Part shown: positions 12,280-23,079 of the stretch, one piece after another
How positions within the stretch are numbered: position 1 is the first letter of the stretch
Layout: every line of letters begins with the position of its first letter
Assembly (NCBI GenBank): GCA_023666125.1
Contig: JAMPCN010000018.1
Span: 1-36,549 of the forward strand
Direction: 5' to 3'
From: Bacillus sp. (in: firmicutes)
GTDB lineage: Bacteria > Bacillota > Clostridia > Lachnospirales > Lachnospiraceae
Length of the DNA stretch: 36,549 bases
The notes under the pieces: generated by a model
Told to the model about the DNA's origin: nothing
The model's input: the letters and a program-made list of their open reading frames with translations, nothing else
Database searches by the model: none
Made by a program: the position numbers and the translations under genes

Positions 12280-13551
12280 ATGACAGATTACAGGATAAAA
12301 AGATATCGCAGATTTTTATATATGGTATTGGCTGCCGGTCTGATTGCCTTAATGATAACGGTATATATAGATTATTGGAAAAAAGTGCCTTCCACCATTA
12401 AAATCCGTGCAGGAGTTGAGCAGGAACTTGATTTTCGGGTACCGGCATCCGGTGAAATTTATCAGGAGGAGGCGGTGGAAAGTCTTTCCAGTCAGGTGGA
12501 GAGCATACATGTTAATTTCTCAAAGGGCGTTACTTTACGGGCTAATCAGATAGACCATTATACGATGGATTTAAAACTGTTTGGCATTCTTCCCTATAAA
12601 AGCGTAGATATCCAGGTCATTCAGGATACGACCCTGATTCCGTCGGGCCTGCCCATCGGCATCTATGTAAAAACGGACGGCGTGCTGGTAGTGGGCATTG
12701 GAGAATTTGAAAATCCGGACGGGGAAACAGTGTCTCCGGCCAGATATATTTTGCAAAGCGGAGATTATATTCTGGATATTAACGGGGAAAAGGTGGAAAA
12801 TAAGAAACAGTTTGTGCAGATGATAGCGGACTGTGAGGGAGAGGAACTGATTATGACGCTGCGGCGTCAGGATGAGATTACCGAGGTAAAGATAAAGCCG
12901 GAGTACAATCAAAGTAAAGAGTGGAAACTCGGTATATGGATTCGGGATAACGCGCAGGGCATCGGCACGCTGACTTATGTGGATACGGATGATACGTTCG
13001 GCGCTTTAGGACACGGCATCAATGACGTGGACACGTCAACGCTCATGCGCCTGGAGGAAGGCACTTTATATAAAACAGAAATTGTAGGCATCACAAGAGG
13101 AACGGACGGTTCGCCCGGAGAATTGACGGGATACATTGCGTACGACAGCGAAAACATCATTGGAGAAATTACGGAGAATACGGCGGAGGGCATATTTGGC
13201 GTCTGCAAGGATGAAATCGTACAGCAGACCCCTTATGAGGCAATTCCCATTGCTTTAAAGCAGGAGGTGCAAATCGGTCCTGCGCAGATTATCTGTTCCG
13301 TCACCGGAGAACCCGGATATTATGATATCGAGATTATGGAGCTGCATTTAGAAGACGGCAACGTCAACAGAGGACTTGTCATAAAGATTACGGACGAGGA
13401 GCTTTTACAGCTTACGGGCGGCATTATTCAGGGAATGAGCGGCAGCCCCATTATACAAAACGGCAAGCTGGTCGGCGCGGTCACGCATGTGCTGGTGCAG
13501 GACGCGGCAAGCGGATATGGTATTTTTATAGAAAATATGCTGGTACAGTAG
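12280..13551 (+). CDS. spoIVB: Stage IV sporulation protein B (SpoIVB peptidase)
   Basis: SpoIVB is a serine peptidase secreted from the forespore into the intermembrane space, where it triggers sigma-K activation in Bacillus. The 423-residue protein has an N-terminal membrane anchor (about 12-31), a PDZ region (about 105-205, with ILQSGDYILDINGEKVENKKQF) and the S55 peptidase domain. Catalytic residues appear to be His245 (ALGHG), Asp372 (ITDEELL) and Ser387 (GMSGSP). The His-to-Ser distance of 142 and Asp-to-Ser distance of 15 equal those of the Bacillus enzyme (His236, Asp363, Ser378). It follows recN as in other spore-formers, but the spo0A gene that normally comes next is displaced by about 7.5 kb. 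Confidence 0.95.
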   Translation: MTDYRIKRYRRFLYMVLAAGLIALMITVYIDYWKKVPSTIKIRAGVEQELDFRVPASGEIYQEEAVESLSSQVESIHVNFSKGVTLRANQIDHYTMDLKLFGILPYKSVDIQVIQDTTLIPSGLPIGIYVKTDGVLVVGIGEFENPDGETVSPARYILQSGDYILDINGEKVENKKQFVQMIADCEGEELIMTLRRQDEITEVKIKPEYNQSKEWKLGIWIRDNAQGIGTLTYVDTDDTFGALGHGINDVDTSTLMRLEEGTLYKTEIVGITRGTDGSPGELTGYIAYDSENIIGEITENTAEGIFGVCKDEIVQQTPYEAIPIALKQEVQIGPAQIICSVTGEPGYYDIEIMELHLEDGNVNRGLVIKITDEELLQLTGGIIQGMSGSPIIQNGKLVGAVTHVLVQDAASGYGIFIENMLVQ

Positions 13552-13630: not shown

Positions 13631-14992
13631 GTGTTAGGCGGTTCTGTTTATATAGCGTTTATTCGGTTTGCGATAAGCCTTGCAGGGGTGATTCTGTTAT
13701 TTTCCAGAATGAGTGAATCACGGTTTGATAAAAAAAAGACAATAGCCTGTTACGGCGGGTTCAGTATAGTGCTGCTGATTGCGGCGTGCATCTGGTATGT
13801 GGTTGACTGGGAAAGCTGCGTGCGGATTGTGGCATTTGCCATGTATATGTGTTTTGTCGTCTTTGCCATTTTTATGAGCAGGGACTCTGTTTATTTATCG
13901 GTCTATAAGCTGGCGCTGACTTTCTATCTGCTGGCTGTATTTTTGATTGGCGGCTTGGAGATTGCGATTATTTTCTTTGGCAGAAATGTATGGGCGGATA
14001 TTATTACGCGTATGTTGCTTATTTTGCTGATGACATTTTTGATAGAGACGAAATTAAAAAAATCCATTAGGGATTTTAGCGATTATGTAGAAAAAGAAGT
14101 GGATAAGTTCAGCGTTGCCGTTATGGTTATCAGTATTCTTTTCGGAATCGGATTTATCTTAAATCCGAATCTGCGTGATGCAACCCCATACCGTTTATAT
14201 CAGATTGCAGTGAATTTTGTCCTGACAGGCACACTGCAGCTTCTTATGTTCCGGTTTTACCTGCATATTGGGAAAGAAAAAGAATATGAGAAAGAAAACC
14301 AGTTAATACAGATGAACCACAGGCTTTTAGAGCGGCAGATGGAGATTTTGGAAGAGTCTGTAGAGGCAGGAAAACGCATTCGTCATGATGTAAGACATCA
14401 TAATGCGGTGATAGCGGAATATGCGCGCCGTGGACAGAAGGAAGAACTGCTGCAATATTTAAAAGAGTATGATAAGGAAACGGACCAAGGCGTGGTGGAG
14501 AGCATATGCGCCAATACCGCAGTCAATAATATCCTCTCGGCATATACCAAAAAGGCGGAAAATGAACGGATTAAGGTTAAACTCGACATAGAGATTGGCA
14601 GGAATTTGGGGATACCGAATATCGATTTGGTGGCAATACTGGCAAACGCTTATGAAAACGCGATTTATGCCTGTATGGAAGTGAAGAAATCTTCAGACAG
14701 GAGGGAATGCGCCATTCATGTGATGATGCGAAAAAGAAAAAATAAACTGATTATTTTCTGCAGCAATACATGCAGAGTGGAAACCGAGTTGGAAAACGGG
14801 CAGCCAAAAACAGAATTTACAGGCGGAATCGGGGTTTCCAGCATCATTAAGACGGCGGAAAAATATGACGGGGAATACGATTTTAAAAATGATAACGGCG
14901 TGTTTATCTTTCGGTTGATTATGAACATTCCATCGGATTTAGGGCCGGAGCAAAAGGAGGAAAAGGAGCATGTATCTGATAGCGTTGTGTGA
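13631..14992 (+). CDS. GHKL-type membrane sensor histidine kinase (AgrC/VirS-like)
   Basis: The N-terminal half (about 1-220) has some seven hydrophobic segments, so it is a polytopic sensor. A short coiled coil leads to the phosphoacceptor region KRIRHDVRHH with His252 as the likely phosphorylated residue. A GHKL ATPase domain follows: ILANAYENAIYAC (N box) and GGIGVSSIIKTAEKYDG (G box). Such kinases (AgrC, VirS, ComD) usually detect secreted peptides and pair with LytTR regulators, as here. No AgrB- or AgrD-like gene or obvious peptide precursor is seen nearby, so the ligand is unknown. GTG 13631 has GGGGG upstream. Its 3' end overlaps the regulator gene by 23 bp. Confidence 0.88.
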   Translation: MLGGSVYIAFIRFAISLAGVILLFSRMSESRFDKKKTIACYGGFSIVLLIAACIWYVVDWESCVRIVAFAMYMCFVVFAIFMSRDSVYLSVYKLALTFYLLAVFLIGGLEIAIIFFGRNVWADIITRMLLILLMTFLIETKLKKSIRDFSDYVEKEVDKFSVAVMVISILFGIGFILNPNLRDATPYRLYQIAVNFVLTGTLQLLMFRFYLHIGKEKEYEKENQLIQMNHRLLERQMEILEESVEAGKRIRHDVRHHNAVIAEYARRGQKEELLQYLKEYDKETDQGVVESICANTAVNNILSAYTKKAENERIKVKLDIEIGRNLGIPNIDLVAILANAYENAIYACMEVKKSSDRRECAIHVMMRKRKNKLIIFCSNTCRVETELENGQPKTEFTGGIGVSSIIKTAEKYDGEYDFKNDNGVFIFRLIMNIPSDLGPEQKEEKEHVSDSVV

Positions 14993-15719
14993 TGATGAAC
15001 CGGTAGAATTAGAGAAGATGGAAGAATATTTGCACGGCTATGAGAAGAATCATTCCGGTTTGGATGTTATGATCCGGCGCTTTGAAAATGCGGATGAACT
15101 GCTCTATTTGGTGAAAAAGGAAAGCTATATGCCAGATGTAATCTTTATGGATATTTATATGCCGGATAAAAAAAGCAGTTCGCATCCCGCAGGGTTAGAA
15201 GCGGCAAAAGAGCTTCGCAGGATAGATTATAAAGGAGATATCGTCTTTTTGACTACTTCCAAAGAATATGCGTTAGAGGCTTTTGACGTGAATGCACTGC
15301 AATATATGGTAAAGCCGGTAGCGGAGGATAAATTGTTTTCTCTGCTTGATAACCTGTTAAAAGACAGGCAGGAGGAGCAAAAAAAATATATTCTGTTAAG
15401 AATCGAAGGAAAACTTGTGCGGGTGTCAGTAAACGATATTGTATATTGCGAAGCGCAGAGAAAAACGCAATGCCTTTATTTTGCAGACGGTACGCAGTGT
15501 ACTTTGCGCATGACCATGACGGAGATTTATGAACAGCTTTCGCGTTATCAGGGGTTTGTAAGAATCGGGGTGGCTTTCATTGTCAATCTCGGCTACATAG
15601 GCAGTCTGAACGCAAAAGAGGTCTGTATGGATAACGGCATGAAGATTTATCTGCCGAGAGGCACATACAAAACCTTAAAGGAACAATATTTTAACTATTA
15701 TTGCCGGGAAAGCGAATAG
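14970..15719 (+). CDS. LytTR-family DNA-binding response regulator
   Basis: The 249-residue protein has a receiver domain (about 1-125) with acidic pocket Asp8/Asp9, phosphoacceptor Asp61 in VIFMDIYMPD and the Lys of YMVKPV. A C-terminal LytTR domain (about 140-245) follows with VNDIVYCEAQRKTQCLYF and GFVRIGVAFIVNLGYIGSL. LytTR regulators bind direct repeats about two helical turns apart. It overlaps the GHKL kinase gene, so the two are a cognate pair. Repeats of the expected geometry lie just downstream (15728-15762) and again at 20883-20917, making this protein the natural candidate to bind them. An insertion KKSSSHPAG after the phosphoacceptor loop is slightly long for the family. Confidence 0.92.
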   Translation: MYLIALCDDEPVELEKMEEYLHGYEKNHSGLDVMIRRFENADELLYLVKKESYMPDVIFMDIYMPDKKSSSHPAGLEAAKELRRIDYKGDIVFLTTSKEYALEAFDVNALQYMVKPVAEDKLFSLLDNLLKDRQEEQKKYILLRIEGKLVRVSVNDIVYCEAQRKTQCLYFADGTQCTLRMTMTEIYEQLSRYQGFVRIGVAFIVNLGYIGSLNAKEVCMDNGMKIYLPRGTYKTLKEQYFNYYCRESE

Positions 15720-15727
15720 GACAGATT

Positions 15728-15762
15728 TGCAATCCATACCCTGAAAACTGCAATGTATACCC
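15728..15762. promoter_or_regulatory. Candidate LytTR operator A: two 14-bp direct repeats, 21-bp period
   Basis: TGCAATCCATACCC (15728-15741) and TGCAATGTATACCC (15749-15762) agree at 12 of 14 positions with a start-to-start distance of 21 bp. On the minus strand they read as 9-bp ACATTGCAG / GGATTGCAA separated by 12 bp, the AgrA/ComE-type layout. The right repeat ends 6 bp before a weak -35. Assignment to the LytTR regulator encoded immediately upstream is inferred. Confidence 0.6.
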
Positions 15763-15768
15763 GGTAAC

Positions 15769-15797
15769 TGTTCTTTTTATTTTGATATTGATAAAAT
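15769..15797 (+). promoter_or_regulatory. Weak sigma-A-like promoter candidate for the STAS operon
   Basis: TGTTCT, 17 bp, TAAAAT. The -10 is good and the -35 poor, as expected for a promoter needing an activator; operator A ends 6 bp upstream. It lies 40 bp before the STAS gene. Confidence 0.4.
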
Positions 15798-15837
15798 TTA
15801 ATAAATCTCATACCACAGCAAAGGAAGGGAAGATACG

Positions 15838-16140
15838 ATGAAGATTGAGAAGAAACAAGACGGAAGAGAAATGACGCTGCTGCCGGCAGGACGGCTGGAT
15901 ACCTCTACGGCGCCGCAGCTTGATATGGAGATACAAACGATTTTGGAAGATACCGATAAACTGATACTGGATTTTCAGGATTTGGAATATCTATCCTCGG
16001 CCGGTCTGCGTGTGCTTTTGTCCGCGCATAAGGCGTTTATGAAAAAAGAAAACGGCGGCATGGTAATACGAAACGTCAATGAGACGATTCATGAAGTCTT
16101 TGAGGTAACGGGATTTTTGGATATTCTCAACGTCGAGTAG
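15838..16140 (+). CDS. STAS-domain anti-sigma factor antagonist (SpoIIAA/RsbV type)
   Basis: This 100-residue protein is a single STAS domain. The loop LEYLSSAGLRVLLSAHKAF carries the phosphorylatable serine; by alignment of its GL to SpoIIAA, Ser54 is the likely site. In partner switching, the unphosphorylated antagonist binds the kinase/anti-sigma factor and frees its target. Phosphorylation by the kinase reverses this, and a PP2C phosphatase resets it. All three classes of protein occur in this block (kinase at 16188, phosphatase at 19343 minus). No sigma factor is encoded here, so the controlled target is unknown and could be a non-sigma partner. AAGGAAGGGAAG precedes ATG 15838. Confidence 0.9.
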   Translation: MKIEKKQDGREMTLLPAGRLDTSTAPQLDMEIQTILEDTDKLILDFQDLEYLSSAGLRVLLSAHKAFMKKENGGMVIRNVNETIHEVFEVTGFLDILNVE

Positions 16141-16187
16141 GCTGTAAGAATTGAGAATTTGCATTCGCAGGTAATTGGAGGCTGTAT

Positions 16188-16595
16188 ATGAAAGAATTAA
16201 CGGTTGAAGCAACAATCGAGAGCATTCCGGTCATTACGGAATTTGTGGACGAGCAGTTGGATCAGTTTGACTGTCCGATAAAGGCCAAGGCACAGATAGA
16301 TATCGCCATTGACGAACTGTTCAGCAATATCGTTCATTATGCGTATCATCCGGGTACAGGACCGGCGACGGTGCAGGTGGAAGTGTTAGACGAGCCGCTG
16401 TCCGTTATTATAACCTTTATCGACCAGGGCGTGCCGTACGACCCGCTTTCCAAGGCTGACCCGGATGTGACGCTGTCCGCCGAGGATAGGGAAATAGGCG
16501 GTCTGGGTATCTATATTGTGAAAAAGAATATGAGCGAGATTACATATGAATATAAAGACGGGAAAAATATTTTAAGAATCCGCAAGGATATGTAA
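16188..16595 (+). CDS. RsbW/SpoIIAB-type serine kinase (HATPase, anti-sigma factor-like)
   Basis: The 135 residues form one HATPase_c_2 domain: N box IAIDELFSNIVHYAY (about 43-57), G1 FIDQGVPYDP and G2 GGLGIYIVKKNM. Such proteins phosphorylate the STAS partner and bind a target protein when the antagonist is phosphorylated. The DQGVPYDP form and the GGLGIY lid are typical of the SpoIIE-linked, partner-switch class rather than of two-component kinases. It sits 47 bp behind the STAS gene with GGAGG before ATG 16188. Whether it is a true anti-sigma factor or acts on another regulator cannot be read from the sequence. Confidence 0.88.
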   Translation: MKELTVEATIESIPVITEFVDEQLDQFDCPIKAKAQIDIAIDELFSNIVHYAYHPGTGPATVQVEVLDEPLSVIITFIDQGVPYDPLSKADPDVTLSAEDREIGGLGIYIVKKNMSEITYEYKDGKNILRIRKDM

Positions 16596-16635
16596 GAGAG
16601 CGGTTTATGGCAAAAGATAAAGGGGAAGTTATTAC

Positions 16636-18924
16636 ATGGCAGAGCAGAGTAATCATCAGAATTTATATAGAGAAATCGTTACTAATCTGTTAGAAGGGGT
16701 TATGGTAATCAGCATGAACGGTAAGATTACCATGTTAAATCCCGCAGCGGAACAGATACTTGGTCTGACGCAGGAAGATATTGGCGCTTCCTACGTCAAT
16801 GTTTTTTTGACAAGAGAGGGAACGGACGATTTTAGTCAGGTCATATTGGACACCATTTATGAAAAGGAAAAAGTAAGAAACATGCCCGTGGATTATGCGT
16901 TGGAGGGGAAAATAAGAAATCTGTCCTTAACGACAAGTTATATCCATAATGACGGGGAAAAATCGGTGGTAGTCGTCATAGAGGATGTGACGGAGTTAAA
17001 CGAACTTAGGGATGCACAAACGGCTCTTGATAAAATCAGAAAGCTGAATGTGGAATATGAAAAGGCCAAAGATGAGGCGGTCAGGGCAAACGAGGCGAAA
17101 AGCCTTTTTTTATCCAATATGTCACATGAAATCAGAACGCCGATAAACGCGGTACTTGGCATGAATGAGATGATATTAAGGGAATGTGCGGACGAGCAGC
17201 TTCTTTCCTATGCGGCGAATATCAAAAGCTCCGGTAAGACGCTGTTATTTTTGATTAATGACATACTGGATATGTCCAAGATAGAGTCCGGTAAGATGGA
17301 AATCGTCAAGGTGGAATACGCCATAGGGGAACTGATTATGGATTTGTGGAACGTCATTTTTCTGCGAGCGCAGGAAAAGGGCTTATCGCTTACGGTTTCC
17401 TTAAACGAAACGCTGCCGGGAACACTGTACGGCGATGATGTCAGAATCAAACAGATTGTGACAAACCTGCTTACGAATGCAGTGAAATATACGCCGCAGG
17501 GCGGCATTGAAATGAATGTCACCTATGAAAATGCGGGTGAGGGATATCTGTCGCTTATCATATCCGTAAAAGATACGGGAATGGGCATCAAAAAAGAGGA
17601 CATGGGGAAACTCTTCGAGAGCTTTCAGAGGCTGGATGAAGAGAAAAACCGCAATATCGAGGGAACAGGTCTGGGCATGAATATCACCATGTCATTATTA
17701 AAGCTGATGGACGGCGATATGAAAGTGGAGAGCGAATACGGAAAGGGTTCCGTCTTTACCGTGACGATACCGCAGAGAATCGTAAGTGTAGAGCCTGCGG
17801 GCAGCTTTGAGGATATCCGGAAGAAACATGAAACAGCCACAAAGACAGGGCAGCAGAGTTTCGAGGCTCCCGAGGCCAAGGTGCTGGTGGTGGATGATAA
17901 CGAAATGAACCTGACCGTATTTAAGTCGCTTCTGAAACGTACGAAAATGAATATTGTGACTGCAAATTCCGGTAAACGCTGCTTAGAGCTTGTGCAGAAA
18001 GAACATTATCATATGATATTCATGGACCATATGATGCCGGAAATGGACGGTATTGAGACGCTTCACGCCATGCGAGAGCTTACGGATTACCCCAATAAAG
18101 GAACACCTGTTATTGTTTTAACGGCAAACGCGCTTTCCGGCGCGAGGGAAAGCTACTTGAAGGAGGGGTTTGTGGACTTTTTGACAAAGCCGATAGACGG
18201 GGATTTGCTGGAAGAAACGATTGTATCATATCTGCCCCGGAATCTGATACATAGAAAGACGCAGTCTGATGAGACGACGGAAAAAGAAGCGGACAAGGGA
18301 GGCGTACAGGATAACTATGACAGCTTTTTAGAATATGGCATTTCCATTGAAAAGGGTCTGGCCTATGCCAAGGGCGATAAGGACATTTATCTGGAACTGG
18401 TGGGGATGTTTATAAAAGATGATGGAAAACGCGCTGATATGCAGAACTTTATAAATGAGCAGAATATGAAAGACTATGCGGTCTGGGTGCATGGCTTAAA
18501 AGGCAACGCCAGGACGCTTGGCGCGGAGAAACTGGCGGATATGGCGTATGAACATGAGATGAAAAGCAAAGCCGGAGACGACGGCTATGTAAAGGCGCAT
18601 TGGGAAGAACTGTGCGGCGTCTGGGAAGATACGGTGAACGGTTTTGCAAAGTTTTATGATGCCTGCGGAGGCGTCAATGCTAAATATGCAAGTGTGGACA
18701 GTGACGGCAAAGAAGTGTTACACTTATCACAGGACGATTTGGATAAAGCGGCCGCGTTTTTGGATGATTTTAAGACGGACAAAGCGGTAGAGCAGTTAAA
18801 ATCGTGGCTTCAAAATCCGTTGGAGCCTGCGATATATGAACGTATTAAGAATGCTTTGCTTGCTTTGGAAGATGAATTTGACGAGGACAAGGCGATAGCA
18901 TTGTTAAGAGAAAACGAAAGATGA
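16636..18924 (+). CDS. Hybrid histidine kinase: PAS-HisKA-HATPase-REC-Hpt
   Basis: This 762-residue soluble protein has no membrane segment. Domains in order are: PAS (about 8-125, EGVMVISMNGKITMLNPAAEQILG), coiled-coil linker, HisKA with SNMSHEIRTPINAVLGM (His164), HATPase (about 270-390, QIVTNLLTNAVKYTPQGG, GTGLGMNITMSLLKLM), a receiver (about 411-530, VLVVDDNEMN, Asp464 in MDHMMPEMDG) and an Hpt domain with WVHGLKGNARTLG (His619). It thus contains a full internal His-Asp-His relay that should hand phosphate to a separate receiver. The single-domain receiver 20 bp downstream is the obvious acceptor. The PAS ligand is unknown. The region past about residue 690 is acidic and helical, without a recognised domain. 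GGGGAAG precedes ATG 16636. Confidence 0.92.
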   Translation: MAEQSNHQNLYREIVTNLLEGVMVISMNGKITMLNPAAEQILGLTQEDIGASYVNVFLTREGTDDFSQVILDTIYEKEKVRNMPVDYALEGKIRNLSLTTSYIHNDGEKSVVVVIEDVTELNELRDAQTALDKIRKLNVEYEKAKDEAVRANEAKSLFLSNMSHEIRTPINAVLGMNEMILRECADEQLLSYAANIKSSGKTLLFLINDILDMSKIESGKMEIVKVEYAIGELIMDLWNVIFLRAQEKGLSLTVSLNETLPGTLYGDDVRIKQIVTNLLTNAVKYTPQGGIEMNVTYENAGEGYLSLIISVKDTGMGIKKEDMGKLFESFQRLDEEKNRNIEGTGLGMNITMSLLKLMDGDMKVESEYGKGSVFTVTIPQRIVSVEPAGSFEDIRKKHETATKTGQQSFEAPEAKVLVVDDNEMNLTVFKSLLKRTKMNIVTANSGKRCLELVQKEHYHMIFMDHMMPEMDGIETLHAMRELTDYPNKGTPVIVLTANALSGARESYLKEGFVDFLTKPIDGDLLEETIVSYLPRNLIHRKTQSDETTEKEADKGGVQDNYDSFLEYGISIEKGLAYAKGDKDIYLELVGMFIKDDGKRADMQNFINEQNMKDYAVWVHGLKGNARTLGAEKLADMAYEHEMKSKAGDDGYVKAHWEELCGVWEDTVNGFAKFYDACGGVNAKYASVDSDGKEVLHLSQDDLDKAAAFLDDFKTDKAVEQLKSWLQNPLEPAIYERIKNALLALEDEFDEDKAIALLRENER

Positions 18925-18943
18925 GAAAGGAGTATATAAAAAT

Positions 18944-19342
18944 ATGAATGCAGACGGACAAAAACAGATTGTAGCGGTGGATGACAGCGCGATTATCTTG
19001 AAAATGCTTGAGAAAGTGCTGGGTGGAAAATACGAACTGCGCGCGTTTGTCTCAGGTACGCGTGCGCTCCAGTATTTAAAAGACAGAACGCCGGATTTGA
19101 TTATTTTAGACATCGATATGCCGGAAATCAACGGCTATGAAATGTTGGAAAAAATTAAGGAAAGGGGCCATTTACAGGATGTGCCGGTTATCTTTTTAAC
19201 ATCCAACAATGACAAAAGCCATGTCGTCAAAGCCGTAGCGGGCGGCGCAAGAGATTATGTCGTCAAACCGATTGACGAGGACGTTTTAATGGACAAGGTG
19301 CGCCTGTTATTAGATGATGTTGACGACGCATGGCTTTCTTAA
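18944..19342 (+). CDS. Stand-alone receiver-domain response regulator (CheY-like)
   Basis: 132 residues, only a receiver: acidic pair Asp13/Asp14 (VAVDDSAI), phosphoacceptor Asp56 (IILDIDMPEINGYEML), Thr86 (VIFLTS) and Lys108 (YVVKPID). No output domain is present. It lies 20 bp behind the hybrid kinase and probably receives phosphate from its Hpt domain. Downstream effect must be by protein contact; candidates in this block are the PP2C phosphatase or the receiver-less Spo0A, but both are guesses. Its sequence does not look like a detached Spo0A receiver. Its stop codon directly abuts that of the convergent phosphatase gene (19340-19345). Confidence 0.92.
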   Translation: MNADGQKQIVAVDDSAIILKMLEKVLGGKYELRAFVSGTRALQYLKDRTPDLIILDIDMPEINGYEMLEKIKERGHLQDVPVIFLTSNNDKSHVVKAVAGGARDYVVKPIDEDVLMDKVRLLLDDVDDAWLS

Positions 19343-20809
19343 TTAAGTATTGGACATGGTTTTTAAATATTCCACGCAGAGCATGGTAATGTCATCAAAC
19401 TGCGGCGCGTTTCCGACGAAAGCGTCGATATCCGCTTTGACGATGGGAAGAAGTTCGGCAGGAGACTTATCGGTGTTTTTCGTAAGAACATCGGTAAGTC
19501 TTTTCATGCCGTAGAGTTCATTGGCTGCGTTGGTGGCTTCCGTTACGCCGTCCGTATACTGGAAAATCTTATCTCCGGGTGAAAGCGTGATGCTGCCGCT
19601 TTGGTACTTCATATTCTCCATACCGGCAAGTACAAATCCCGGTTTCAGTTTATAGGCTTCGTATACATTTCCCGACTTGGCGATAAAAGGCATTTCATGT
19701 CCGGCGTTGACAAAGTGAAACTCGCCTGTCACCAGATTCAGAACGCCCTCAAATGCCGTGATGAAAAGCCCCTCGCTGTTGGATTCGCAAAGCAGGTCGT
19801 TTACTTCCGAAAATACTTGACCTAAATCGGTACCCGGTGTCGTATGGTCTTTAATCAGCGTTTTGCCGATAACCATAAAAAGCGCAGCGGGAACGCCTTT
19901 TCCCGAAACGTCAGCCATGACGATGGCAAGGTGTTTATCGTCCACCATAAAGAAATCGTAGAAATCTCCGCCAACCTCTTTGGCGGGGGTCATGGAGGCG
20001 TAGATATCAAATTCCGGACGCTCCGGGAAAGCAGGGAAAATACGCGGCAGCATATTTGCCTGAATATGCGTGGCAACGTCCAGCTCCGTGGAAATGCGTT
20101 GTCTTTCCTCACTGTCTTTAATCTGCTTCTCTAATAGGTTTCTCGTCCGTTTCGCTATCGTGGTAGCGATGGAGGAGAGTCCTAATAGAATCATGGCGCG
20201 TGGAAAGACATAAAAGATGGTCGCGCCATACCACATATCGCCGGTGACAGTCCGTGTGGCGGCGCCGGTGCCGAGATACATATTATAAAGCGTTTCTATG
20301 TTTGATTTAGCAAAATCATAACTTCCAAGAGTCAGATTTAAATCTCCTTCGCCGACATAGAGACTGATATAGATAGAAGCGGAAAACAGCACCCATGACG
20401 AAACAAGCGTCATATGGGTCAGTTTCCTGGAATAATAGTGGCAGCTTAACATAAGCGGCAATGCCCATGCTAAAACGCCGTGTTTCGGCATGGTGACGGA
20501 TAAAAGGAAAATGCCCGTAATGCCGCAGAGTAAAATAACATATTTTAACCAGGCGGATTTGCCGTCTGTTATTTTGCATAGTAAAGTCGGGGCAAGAAAA
20601 CAGAGAATCAGAATCGGCATGGAAGTATTCATGATTGTTTTGGGAATAATAAAAATGCCTATCAGATTGAGAAACCATGACAGCGCGCCGACAAGCGCGC
20701 ATACGGACAGGCATTTTGCCGCATATCGATTAGCCTCTTTTTCGTTTTCTATGAGCGCCTGCAATTCCAGTTCTGTATTTTCCATTTTTCGTTTTCTTCT
20801 GTTTTTCAT
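19343..20809 (-). CDS. Membrane-bound SpoIIE/RsbU-type PP2C serine phosphatase
   Basis: The 488-residue protein has about six hydrophobic segments in residues 30-218, a short coiled linker (about 222-255, with LDVATHIQANMLPRIFP, typical of RsbU-like proteins) and a PP2C domain to the C-terminus. Metal-binding acids are in place: Asp282 (VGGDFYDFF), Asp300 (VMADVSGKG), Asp420 (QYTDGVTE) and Asp472-473 (FDDITMLCV). It should dephosphorylate a STAS antagonist, very likely the one at 15838. The sensor half is unlike SpoIIE, so it is not the cell-division phosphatase itself. It is transcribed opposite to its partners and from the region shared with the Spo0A-like gene. GAGAGG precedes its start. 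Confidence 0.92.
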   Translation of the reverse strand: MKNRRKRKMENTELELQALIENEKEANRYAAKCLSVCALVGALSWFLNLIGIFIIPKTIMNTSMPILILCFLAPTLLCKITDGKSAWLKYVILLCGITGIFLLSVTMPKHGVLAWALPLMLSCHYYSRKLTHMTLVSSWVLFSASIYISLYVGEGDLNLTLGSYDFAKSNIETLYNMYLGTGAATRTVTGDMWYGATIFYVFPRAMILLGLSSIATTIAKRTRNLLEKQIKDSEERQRISTELDVATHIQANMLPRIFPAFPERPEFDIYASMTPAKEVGGDFYDFFMVDDKHLAIVMADVSGKGVPAALFMVIGKTLIKDHTTPGTDLGQVFSEVNDLLCESNSEGLFITAFEGVLNLVTGEFHFVNAGHEMPFIAKSGNVYEAYKLKPGFVLAGMENMKYQSGSITLSPGDKIFQYTDGVTEATNAANELYGMKRLTDVLTKNTDKSPAELLPIVKADIDAFVGNAPQFDDITMLCVEYLKTMSNT

Positions 20810-20917: not shown

Positions 20918-20945
20918 GTCCGGTTTCCTTTGGCGATGACTAAAT

Positions 20946-20975
20946 ATTCCATAGCATGAAAACATTGTTTATAAT
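20946..20975 (+). promoter_or_regulatory. Promoter candidate for the Spo0A-like gene
   Basis: A perfect TATAAT (20970-20975) lies 38 bp before the start codon. ATTCCA, 18 bp upstream, is a weak -35. No clear 0A box (TTTGTCRAA) was seen nearby. Confidence 0.5.
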
Positions 20976-21013
20976 AGGGATAACGCACAGGTTGAGCAAG
21001 AATGGAGGAGCCT

Positions 21014-21541
21014 ATGGAACAATTAAATTTAACCGTAACAAGAGATAATGAAAAGGTGTATCAGATTTTAAATAATCTGATGAGCGGGGATAAAGAATTT
21101 CAGATTATGATAACAGTACCCTCCGGCAGACAGGAAAGCGTTCTGGCAGAAATGAATGAGGTGGCAAGAGGCGAAAAAGGGCATGATTTGGAAAAAGACG
21201 TCACCAATATGATACATGAAATCGGCGTGCCGGCACATATCAAAGGATATCAATACTTACGTGAGGCGATTATGATGTCCGTGGAGGATGTGGAAATGCT
21301 TGGTTCCATTACAAAGGTTTTATATCCTACCATAGCGGGAAAATACCAGACAACGCCAAGCAGGGTGGAGCGCGCCATCAGACATGCGATTGAGGTGGCA
21401 TGGTCGAGAGGGAAGATGGAAACATTAGACGCTCTGTTCGGATATACGATTAATACAGGCAAAGGAAAGCCGACTAATTCAGAATTTATCGCGCTTATTG
21501 CAGATAAAATCAGGCTGCAATATCGAGGTTATAGCAATTAA
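21014..21541 (+). CDS. Receiver-less Spo0A-type sporulation regulator (Spo0A C-terminal domain only)
   Basis: Residues about 61-170 are a near-canonical Spo0A effector domain: [78 protein letters not shown]. The DNA-contacting helix region is kept. The phosphorylation receiver of about 120 residues that normally precedes it is missing. In its place is a segment of about 60 residues ([31 protein letters not shown]) that I do not recognise and that may form a small beta-alpha unit. Upstream lies a short intergenic region and an oppositely oriented gene, so no receiver could be joined by a frameshift. ATG 21002 is possible, but ATG 21014 has GGAGG 5 nt upstream. It may be constitutively active, regulated by partners, or an antagonist of a full Spo0A encoded elsewhere. 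Confidence 0.9.
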
Positions 21542-21633: not shown

Positions 21634-23079
21634 ATGAAGAAGATTTTGTTTGTTGCATCAGAGGGGGTACCTTTTATCAAAACAGGCGGTCTGGCGGATG
21701 TTGTCGGTTCCCTGCCCAAATGTATTGATAGAGATTATTTTGATGTAAGGGTCATTCTTCCCAAATATACCTGTATGTCACAGAAGATGAAAGATTTACT
21801 AAAGTATAGAACGCATTTCTATATGGACTTTCATTGGAGAAATGAATATGTAGGTATTCTGGAAGCGGAAGTAGACGGGGTAAAATACTATTTTGTTGAT
21901 AATGAGTCCTTTTTTAACGGATTCAAGCCGTACAGTGATAACGCGCTGTTTGAAATTGAAAAATATGCATACTTCTGTAAGGCGGCGTTATCCATTTTAC
22001 CGGTCATTGATTTCAGACCGGACTTAATTCACTGCCATGACTGGCAGACGGGACTGATTCCCGTTTATTTAAAAGAAAGATTTCAGGGCAGTGAATTTTA
22101 TCGTGGCATTAAGACGGTTATGACGATTCATAACCTGAAATTCCAAGGGAAATGGAGCGTGAAAGAGGTAAGGGAGATTACCGGACTGCCGGATTACTTC
22201 TTTACGGCCGACAAGCTGGAAGCATACAAGGACGCCAATTTATTAAAAGGCGGTCTGGTTTATGCGGACGCGATTACGACGGTCAGCGATACTTATGCAC
22301 AGGAGATTAAGACGGCATTTTACGGCGAGGGACTCAACGGTCTGTTATGCGCAAGAGCCAATGATTTACGAGGCATTGTAAACGGCATTGATTATGATGA
22401 TTTCAATCCCGAGACCGATGAAAATATACCTTATTCCTATAACGCCATGAATTTCCGTAAGGAAAAAGTGAAAAACAAACGTGCATTGCAGGAAGAACTG
22501 GGATTGACGCAGGATGATAAGGCAATGATGATTGGCGTGGTTTCCAGACTGACCGGACAGAAAGGCTTTGATTTGATTTCCTATGTGATGGATGAACTCT
22601 GTCAGGACAACGTCCAGCTTGTAGTGCTGGGAACGGGAGAAGAGCAGTATGAGAATATGTTCCGCCACTTTGACTGGAAATATCATGGGAAAGTTTCGGC
22701 GAATATCTATTATTCGGATGCGCTCTCCCATAAAATATATGCAGCAAGCGATGCTTTCTTAATGCCGTCGTTATTCGAGCCGTGCGGGTTAAGCCAGTTG
22801 ATGTCCTTACGTTACGGAACAGTGCCGATTGTCAGGGAGACAGGCGGATTAAAGGATACGGTGGAGCCGTATAACGAGTATGAAAGCACCGGAACCGGAT
22901 TCAGCTTTGTGAATTACAATGCGCATGAAATGTTGAATACTATCCGTTATGCTGAACGTATCTATTATGATAAGAAAAGGGAATGGAATAAGATTGTGGA
23001 CCGTGCCATGGCGGCGGATTTCTCATGGCATGTATCCGCGAAAAAGTATCAGGAAATGTATGACTGGCTGATAGGCTGA
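21634..23079 (+). CDS. glgA: Glycogen synthase (ADP-glucose, GT5 family)
   Basis: GlgA extends alpha-1,4-glucan chains from ADP-glucose. The protein has 481 residues. The N-terminal substrate motif FIKTGGLADVVGSLP is intact, as are CHDWQTGLIPVYL, TVSDTYAQEI and the C-terminal FEPCGLSQLMSLRYGT with the catalytic Glu. A TTG at 21619 is also in frame, but GGAGGG lies 7 nt before ATG 21634. No glgC, glgB or glgP is nearby, so this is an isolated glg gene. Its place between a Spo0A-type regulator and a SpoVB-like gene fits the storage of polysaccharide before sporulation known in clostridia, but that link is inferred. Confidence 0.95.
   Translation: MKKILFVASEGVPFIKTGGLADVVGSLPKCIDRDYFDVRVILPKYTCMSQKMKDLLKYRTHFYMDFHWRNEYVGILEAEVDGVKYYFVDNESFFNGFKPYSDNALFEIEKYAYFCKAALSILPVIDFRPDLIHCHDWQTGLIPVYLKERFQGSEFYRGIKTVMTIHNLKFQGKWSVKEVREITGLPDYFFTADKLEAYKDANLLKGGLVYADAITTVSDTYAQEIKTAFYGEGLNGLLCARANDLRGIVNGIDYDDFNPETDENIPYSYNAMNFRKEKVKNKRALQEELGLTQDDKAMMIGVVSRLTGQKGFDLISYVMDELCQDNVQLVVLGTGEEQYENMFRHFDWKYHGKVSANIYYSDALSHKIYAASDAFLMPSLFEPCGLSQLMSLRYGTVPIVRETGGLKDTVEPYNEYESTGTGFSFVNYNAHEMLNTIRYAERIYYDKKREWNKIVDRAMAADFSWHVSAKKYQEMYDWLIG

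Follow-up and report, generated by a model that had tools for sequence, protein, structure and literature searches.

A Spo0A lacking most of its receiver domain is conserved in a clade of gut Lachnospiraceae that keeps sporulation genes

The stretch of Lachnospiraceae DNA analyzed here (36,549 nucleotides, henceforth the window) encodes at positions 21,014 to 21,541 of the + strand a protein of 175 amino acids that is an orthologue of Spo0A minus most of the receiver domain, a form that we call class A. We consider it likely that this gene arose by an in-frame receiver deletion in spo0A itself, with a single origin, and that its product is a Spo0A that needs no phosphorylation and still governs sporulation, with control moved elsewhere. 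A wider reading, to which we give even chances, holds that at least 24 gut genera start endospore formation without phosphotransfer to Spo0A, that the receiver, regarded as universal in endospore formers, was lost at least twice among genomes keeping sporulation markers (in class A and in genome G344), and that its conserved remnant took on a new role in dimerisation or as an input module, in place of the phosphate switch. A gut clade that dropped the phosphorylated part yet keeps sporulation genes may control sporulation in a way other than that of the textbooks, and class A offers a direct way to test why a phosphate switch is needed and at which other point the decision can be made.

The mechanically called open reading frame opens at 21,002, 12 bases before the ATG of 21,014, and we took the latter as the start since the alignment of relatives begins there. 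Residues 63 to 166 match the Pfam domain Spo0A_C (E 1.7e-46; DNA-binding effector domain at 21,200 to 21,511), and the solved Spo0A effectors 1FC3 and 1LQ1 in the PDB match with E-values of 2.6e-51 and 9.4e-50. The region at 21,350 to 21,403, which we take to be the recognition helix, aligns with the solved effectors and is identical to them from SRV onward. The protein reaches 208 bits against a cut-off of 200 with the Spo0A equivalog model TIGR02875 of NCBIfam, over model positions 136 to 259 of 262 only, while none of the receiver profiles searched against it matches. The preliminary description had likewise seen a Spo0A effector without a receiver domain at this place, and the profile and structure matches bear it out. 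In place of a complete receiver with its phospho-acceptor aspartate there is a single beta1-alpha1-beta2 segment, and because nothing more of the receiver is left we treat the protein as an orthologue by descent rather than filing it as a response regulator.

This segment, residues 1 to 32 (21,014 to 21,109), is a true receiver remnant, so that the earlier proposal of a receiver replaced by about 60 unrelated residues does not hold. When the N-termini of 71 class A proteins (44 aa each) are made into a profile and compared by hhalign with one of 83 full-length Spo0A receivers, residues 1 to 32 align with receiver positions 2 to 33 (E 5.7e-9); both sets were chosen by motif, with loci L002, L010, L060, L065, L090, L146, and L156 excluded by name. 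None of 300 column shuffles reaches the real score (best 24.4 vs 45.3). Scored without gaps, the mean BLOSUM62 value of remnant against receiver is +51 when the two are aligned start to start and negative at all 10 other registers tried, and 200 column shuffles of this comparison give a mean of -20 (sd 11, maximum 9). The names beta1-alpha1-beta2 presumably apply, given the likeness to known receivers. Regarding the DDN motif, class A keeps the second aspartate (D11, frequency 0.99) and has replaced the first, most commonly by lysine (0.44); one genome, G393, retains an intact DDN. The phospho-acceptor segment, of the VVLLDIIMP type in full-length relatives, is absent from class A. A receiver remnant with a phosphorylatable aspartate had been named beforehand as an observation that would overturn the preliminary description; the remnant exists, and the phospho-acceptor aspartate does not. 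Downstream, positions 21,110 to 21,187 hold the deletion junction, with a conserved ITVPS motif up to residue 37, and a variable linker up to about residue 58, of which residues 38 to 58 or so are unconserved in the window protein. Across class A, by our own cut, the remnant is followed by a conserved stretch of 11 residues and then by a linker of 23 to 50 residues. An AlphaFold model of the class A alignment is confident for the effector and of low confidence for residues 1 to 36, where it places one helix (12 to 24) and no strands.

The short gene is widespread. Among the matches listed for 72 genomes of the genus, the best Spo0A_C match is a short frame (175 to 226 aa stop to stop) in 67, the window genome included, and a weaker match resembling a second copy in the other 5; third copies of five members lie outside those matches. 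In a sample of 396 genomes of the family, 37 fall into an E-value band of 1e-53 to 1e-62, and 34 of them, from 24 genera, carry class A (33 read as sequence and G064 assigned by frame length). G505 of the same band has a different truncation, and 2 genomes that the band had suggested as class A were rejected: G251 is cut by a contig end, and the frame of G221 is broken near one. The one-contig genome G431 likewise carries class A. This recurrence, together with that in the genus, upholds the earlier statement that the short frame is no frameshift artefact.

For the host phylogeny, a RecA tree held too little signal, with 8 of 30 rows removed by a motif filter, and a GlgA tree was used instead (118 rows left of 140 after thinning those more than 95% identical; built by a quick method without bootstrap). 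All 51 class A rows lie on one side of a single branch (SH-aLRT 99), and 0 of 500 shuffles are as low as this grouping, in a tree that is not fully independent of the spo0A locus since the GlgA gene is linked to it. The receiver deletion seems to have happened once, in the common ancestor of a clade that spans no fewer than 24 genera. Two further truncations look independent of it. In G344 (L065), the receiver start is fused to an apparent beta5-alpha5, and the genome groups (support 90) with seven Lacrimispora/Hungatella-like rows that have a full-length Spo0A; SpoIVA, SpoIIGA, and the spoIIGA promoter layout described below are all kept. In G505 (L090, the same as L156), which sits elsewhere in the GlgA tree, more of the receiver is kept, with glutamate at the phospho-acceptor place and the rest lost; SpoIIGA is present and a SpoIVA match absent.

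A Spo0A without receiver could be decaying in bacteria that have given up sporulation or are on the way to doing so, and besides the missing receiver itself this reading can point to an in-frame stop in the effector of one class A copy (G143) out of the 33 read and to a machine-learning survey whose accessible text classes all 24 of its Lachnospirales MAGs, including Acetatifactor, as non-sporulating (PMC12536801). Conservation and gene content speak against it. Mean pairwise identity within class A is 0.92 for the effector, 0.63 for the remnant (0.94 over its residues 28 to 36), and 0.17 for the linker, the latter from equal-length pairs only, and remnant and effector are conserved across 24 genera. 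In six close pairs, dN/dS is 0.028 for the remnant and 0.006 for the effector. Because of this low dN/dS and the sequence conservation, the remnant is probably retained for a reason.

Sporulation markers were searched in 80 genomes, with the Spo0A-less and full-length sets picked by E-value from the 396-genome scan and the 36 class A genomes assigned by sequence except for G018, G064, and G065 (frame length and genus). SpoIVA is present in 35 of the 36 (not in G288) and SpoIIGA also in 35 (not in the window genome, G000, which is 88% complete and gave no SpoIIGA match), similar to the full-length genomes, in which both are found in 20 of 20. Among 22 Spo0A-less genomes, neither marker occurs above the cut-off (0/22 each, with two weak SpoIIGA matches below it), and these genomes without both markers are also devoid of any Spo0A_C domain. 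The co-occurrence of the two markers with class A, compared with Spo0A-less genomes, has a Fisher p of 4e-15. In the family sample, no Spo0A_C of any kind is found in 24 Spo0A-less genomes, which include one each (G179, G436, and G500) from three genera in which class A species occur as well. Taken against the conserved protein and its retained markers, decay seems an unlikely explanation. Two other proteins are less informative: SpoIIE_N is a weak marker since the class A clade has a short SpoIIE, with no match in 7 and a match below cut-off in 6 of 30 genomes, and a Spo0E-like phosphatase (0 of 38 genomes of class A, G344, and G505 vs 3 of 20) is too rare to mean much. SpoIIE of the clade (L288 to L303) mostly has a frame of about 390 to 460 aa, without the N-terminal part that is matched in G132, G336, and G196.

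A slightly less probable alternative is that the short protein still binds DNA but controls a different regulon, or works as repressor or competitor, with sporulation started by another receiver-bearing protein. The presence of a second effector-only gene in the genome, called class B, shows that such proteins are in use, and of 31 class A relatives from other genera, 4 (G435, G300, G197, and G186; L330 to L334) encode proteins that join a receiver to a far diverged Spo0A_C part. These paralogues have frames of 262 to 278 aa, a receiver-like N-terminus, and Spo0A_C scores of 38 to 84 bits, vs 150 and more; receiver-bearing matches at such low scores occur in some full-length genomes too. They are a separate regulator family, though in principle one of them could receive the signal in those 4 genomes. 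Against the alternative, the window genome (88% complete, 138 contigs) yielded no full-length Spo0A, only two Spo0A_C genes, both without receiver; 27 of the 31 relatives have no receiver-bearing Spo0A_C gene with a full-length frame, and none of the 31 yielded another receiver-bearing gene that scores like Spo0A. The earlier idea that the short protein competes with a full Spo0A encoded elsewhere therefore finds no support, given that the two genes of its own genome lack the receiver and 4 of 31 relatives have a far diverged paralogue only.

The conserved promoter layout of spoIIGA also stands against a change of regulon. Upstream of this gene, GACA and TATAAT at a distance of 21 bp (scored as GACA, exactly 21 bp, and TATAAT with one mismatch allowed) are found in 26 of 29 class A regions (10/10 in one set and 16/19 in the other) and 18 of 19 full-length regions, and shuffled regions lead one to expect 0.01 to 0.02 such layouts per region. 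The class A exceptions are G288 and G204, with 22 bp, and G281, with none. The common form, TTTTGACAAAAT, resembles an inverted 0A box overlapping the -35 element, and an inverted 0A box overlaps the -35 of the B. subtilis spoIIG promoter as well. In G018 and G059, sigE was recognised by eye downstream of spoIIGA. The same layout precedes spoIIE in 18 of 23 regions (full-length 7/7, G344, G505, and class A 9/14), counts that rest partly on weak SpoIIE assignments. A genome-wide scan of 8 genomes recovered the spoIIGA sites of G018, G059, and G431 and revealed no regulon beyond spoIIGA, the other matches being chance-like and occurring also in a Spo0A-less genome; in the window genome it found no spoIIGA-type promoter.

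The likely promoter of spo0A itself (20,933 to 20,975, + strand), as read from the sequence, comprises GCGATG (20,933 to 20,938), a -35-like TTCCAT (20,947 to 20,952), and, after 17 bp, TATAAT (20,970 to 20,975). A GCGRTR element 36 to 38 bases before TATAAT is present in 54 of 70 class A upstream regions (70 of 71 were used; 0.6 expected) vs 13 of 83 full-length ones. Seven of these 13 belong to a sister lineage, in which TGTCGAA mostly stands three bases before TGCGRTR. The element is possibly a degenerate second 0A box, and if so, autoregulation would be a candidate for a feature older than the loss of the receiver. Consensus-like 0A boxes upstream of spo0A are rarer in class A (26 of 70 regions, expected 5.4) than in full-length genomes (55 of 83, expected 7.5), and sigma-H-type promoters were not found there above chance.

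Downstream of the short gene lies glgA (21,634 to 23,079, + strand), and upstream lies spoIVB (PDZ and peptidase S55 domains; 12,280 to 13,551, + strand), the conserved neighbours of spo0A. In the window, 7.5 kb with six signalling genes on mixed strands (13,631 to 20,809) separate the end of spoIVB at 13,551 from spo0A, so that the preliminary placement of the gene at the spo0A side of spoIVB is correct for the locus as such, with these extra genes in between in the window. In the near relative L093 (89% identical), spoIVB is directly upstream of spo0A without the signalling set there. We surveyed gene order in 25 class A and 55 other loci, many of which end early at the edge of a contig or stored stretch. 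Some of the loci used in this work come from the same genome or are identical (L030/L093, L070/L111, and L090/L156). The order argR-recN-spoIVB-spo0A-glgA is complete in 5 of the 25 class A loci (L093, L097, L098, L106, and L115) and 20 of the 55 others, glgA follows spo0A in every one of the 25, and spoIVB lies upstream in 6 of them at a distance of 1.4 to 4.7 kb. Because this gene order is common to relatives with normal and with short Spo0A, the window gene is the genome's own spo0A in its ancestral place and not a stray effector domain.

The signalling set consists of a GHKL kinase, a LytTR regulator, an RsbW-type ATPase, a hybrid kinase of PAS-HisKA-HATPase-REC-Hpt architecture (its Hpt match is weak), and a stand-alone receiver (18,944 to 19,342), with a SpoIIE-type phosphatase on the - strand. 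One could imagine that the stand-alone receiver, 1.7 kb from spo0A and fed by the neighbouring hybrid kinase with its REC and weak Hpt domains, controls the truncated Spo0A in trans. This is very improbable: between spoIVB and spo0A in the 6 class A loci just mentioned, no homologue of the signalling genes is reported, in a survey that filtered away kinase and receiver matches below 40% identity, and the stand-alone receiver shares 25% to 33% identity with the Spo0A receivers among the rows displayed, which we take as an ordinary level.

Even less probable is a phage origin of the gene. A receiver-less spo0A has been published for gut phages, and in the accessible part of that study it comes from viromes and aligns to the effector only (PMC10294663), similar to class A in having an effector without a complete receiver; 14 of 50,697 phage records match Spo0A_C. 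Unlike these phage-borne genes, class A is a chromosomal orthologue with an N-terminal receiver remnant, located at the spo0A locus between conserved neighbours rather than in a phage or prophage setting. The 14 records are unannotated metagenomic entries named "Bacteriophage sp." (MT835504, MT835781, MT835715, and others), and some may be bacterial scaffolds. An assembly artefact that dropped a receiver segment, conceivable for a fragmented draft of 138 contigs and named at the outset as a finding that would undo the interpretation, can be dismissed, since dozens of separate assemblies including the one-contig G431 have the same architecture.

An in-frame deletion within spo0A itself remains our preferred explanation. 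Several observations count against it: the survey that predicts Lachnospirales to be non-sporulating, the window genome without a SpoIIGA match, the stop in G143, the missing SpoIVA of G288, the diverged receiver-bearing paralogues, the low-confidence model of the remnant, the rarer 0A boxes upstream of the gene, the spoIIE layout in only 9 of 14 class A loci, and the scan that revealed no wider regulon. Its first step would be an internal deletion that took most of the receiver including the phospho-acceptor aspartate. We infer activity without phosphorylation because this aspartate is missing and the sporulation markers are kept: the short Spo0A would bind 0A boxes unphosphorylated and, by analogy to sad67, turn sporulation on. 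The decision to sporulate might then be set by the amount of the protein, whose own promoter has retained a conserved element next to the -35, or else by a partner of the conserved remnant, and the remnant may keep effector domains together as a dimer; both of these final steps are guesses. The AlphaFold model, in which no part of the remnant is folded with confidence as a monomer, leaves room for a dimer or a partner. Among the three options originally proposed, constitutive activity seems to fit best, given the lost phospho-acceptor and the kept markers. Control by another input bound by the N-terminus may still apply, but this N-terminus is a receiver remnant and not new.

Class A resembles Spo0A of Bacillus, Clostridioides, and full-length Lachnospiraceae in locus, effector, recognition-helix sequence, neighbours, markers, and spoIIGA layout, and differs from them in lacking the receiver beyond beta2 and the phospho-acceptor aspartate and in the mostly replaced first aspartate of the DDN motif. 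The closest laboratory parallel is sad67, a constitutively active B. subtilis spo0A allele with an internal receiver deletion. Similar to sad67, class A is an altered Spo0A that would be expected to be active unphosphorylated; unlike it, class A is natural, fixed in a clade, and endowed with a conserved remnant. In the available portion of one report, sad67 is constitutively active and its induction switched on early sporulation genes, with efficient sporulation requiring a further condition (PMC4689505). A receiver-less Spo0A therefore need not imply uncontrolled sporulation.

A review states, in its accessible text, that every endospore former starts sporulation via Spo0A phosphorylated at a conserved receiver aspartate (PMC11210211). 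No description of a chromosomal receiver-less Spo0A was found in the literature searched, in which subscription journals are little covered. According to the part available of another study, some human-gut Lachnospiraceae with a relatively complete sporulation gene set have lost spo0A, as judged from Prokka gene names (PMC11170972), and we infer that a short Spo0A missed by this naming may explain the report. A survey that searched 1,358 genomes at 30% identity tied the presence of spo0A to a sporulation signature, with agreement in 1,343 of them, as far as its accessible text goes (PMC8340488); we think that such a search would overlook a missing receiver. A short Spo0A would also affect tools that predict spore formation from spo0A.

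The second Spo0A_C gene of the window genome (C61:77440-77748, L002:1474-1974, a 166-aa ORF) represents class B, which shares the lack of a receiver and the Spo0A_C domain with class A (L002 and L261 to L280). Unlike class A, it resides at another locus, has no remnant by eye, and carries an altered recognition helix (QKVERAIRN or similar vs SRVERAIRH). A class B copy is present in 29 of 31 class A genomes (122 to 141 bits), compared with a short-frame copy of at least 120 bits in 2 of 56 full-length genomes, and class B is a possible partner or antagonist of class A. In the window genome, it adjoins an apparent mannose-1-phosphate guanylyltransferase gene (named by eye).

Several other Spo0A_C genes were seen in passing. 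A third short type (L335, L337, L339, and L340, of G117, G204, G380, and G311) has an N-terminus that by eye is somewhat remnant-like in G117, G204, and G311. The class A copy of G143 (L309), with its in-frame stop inside the effector domain, shares its genome with SpoIVA and SpoIIGA. Tandem Spo0A_C genes about 0.8 to 0.9 kb apart occur at L073, L088, and L092 as well as in G146, G225, G271, G482, and G486, and the copies at L073, L088, and L092 have a degenerate receiver DDN motif (NHD, KHD). Of nine Spo0A_C matches in the single-contig genome G184, eight lie in short frames (111 to 167 aa).
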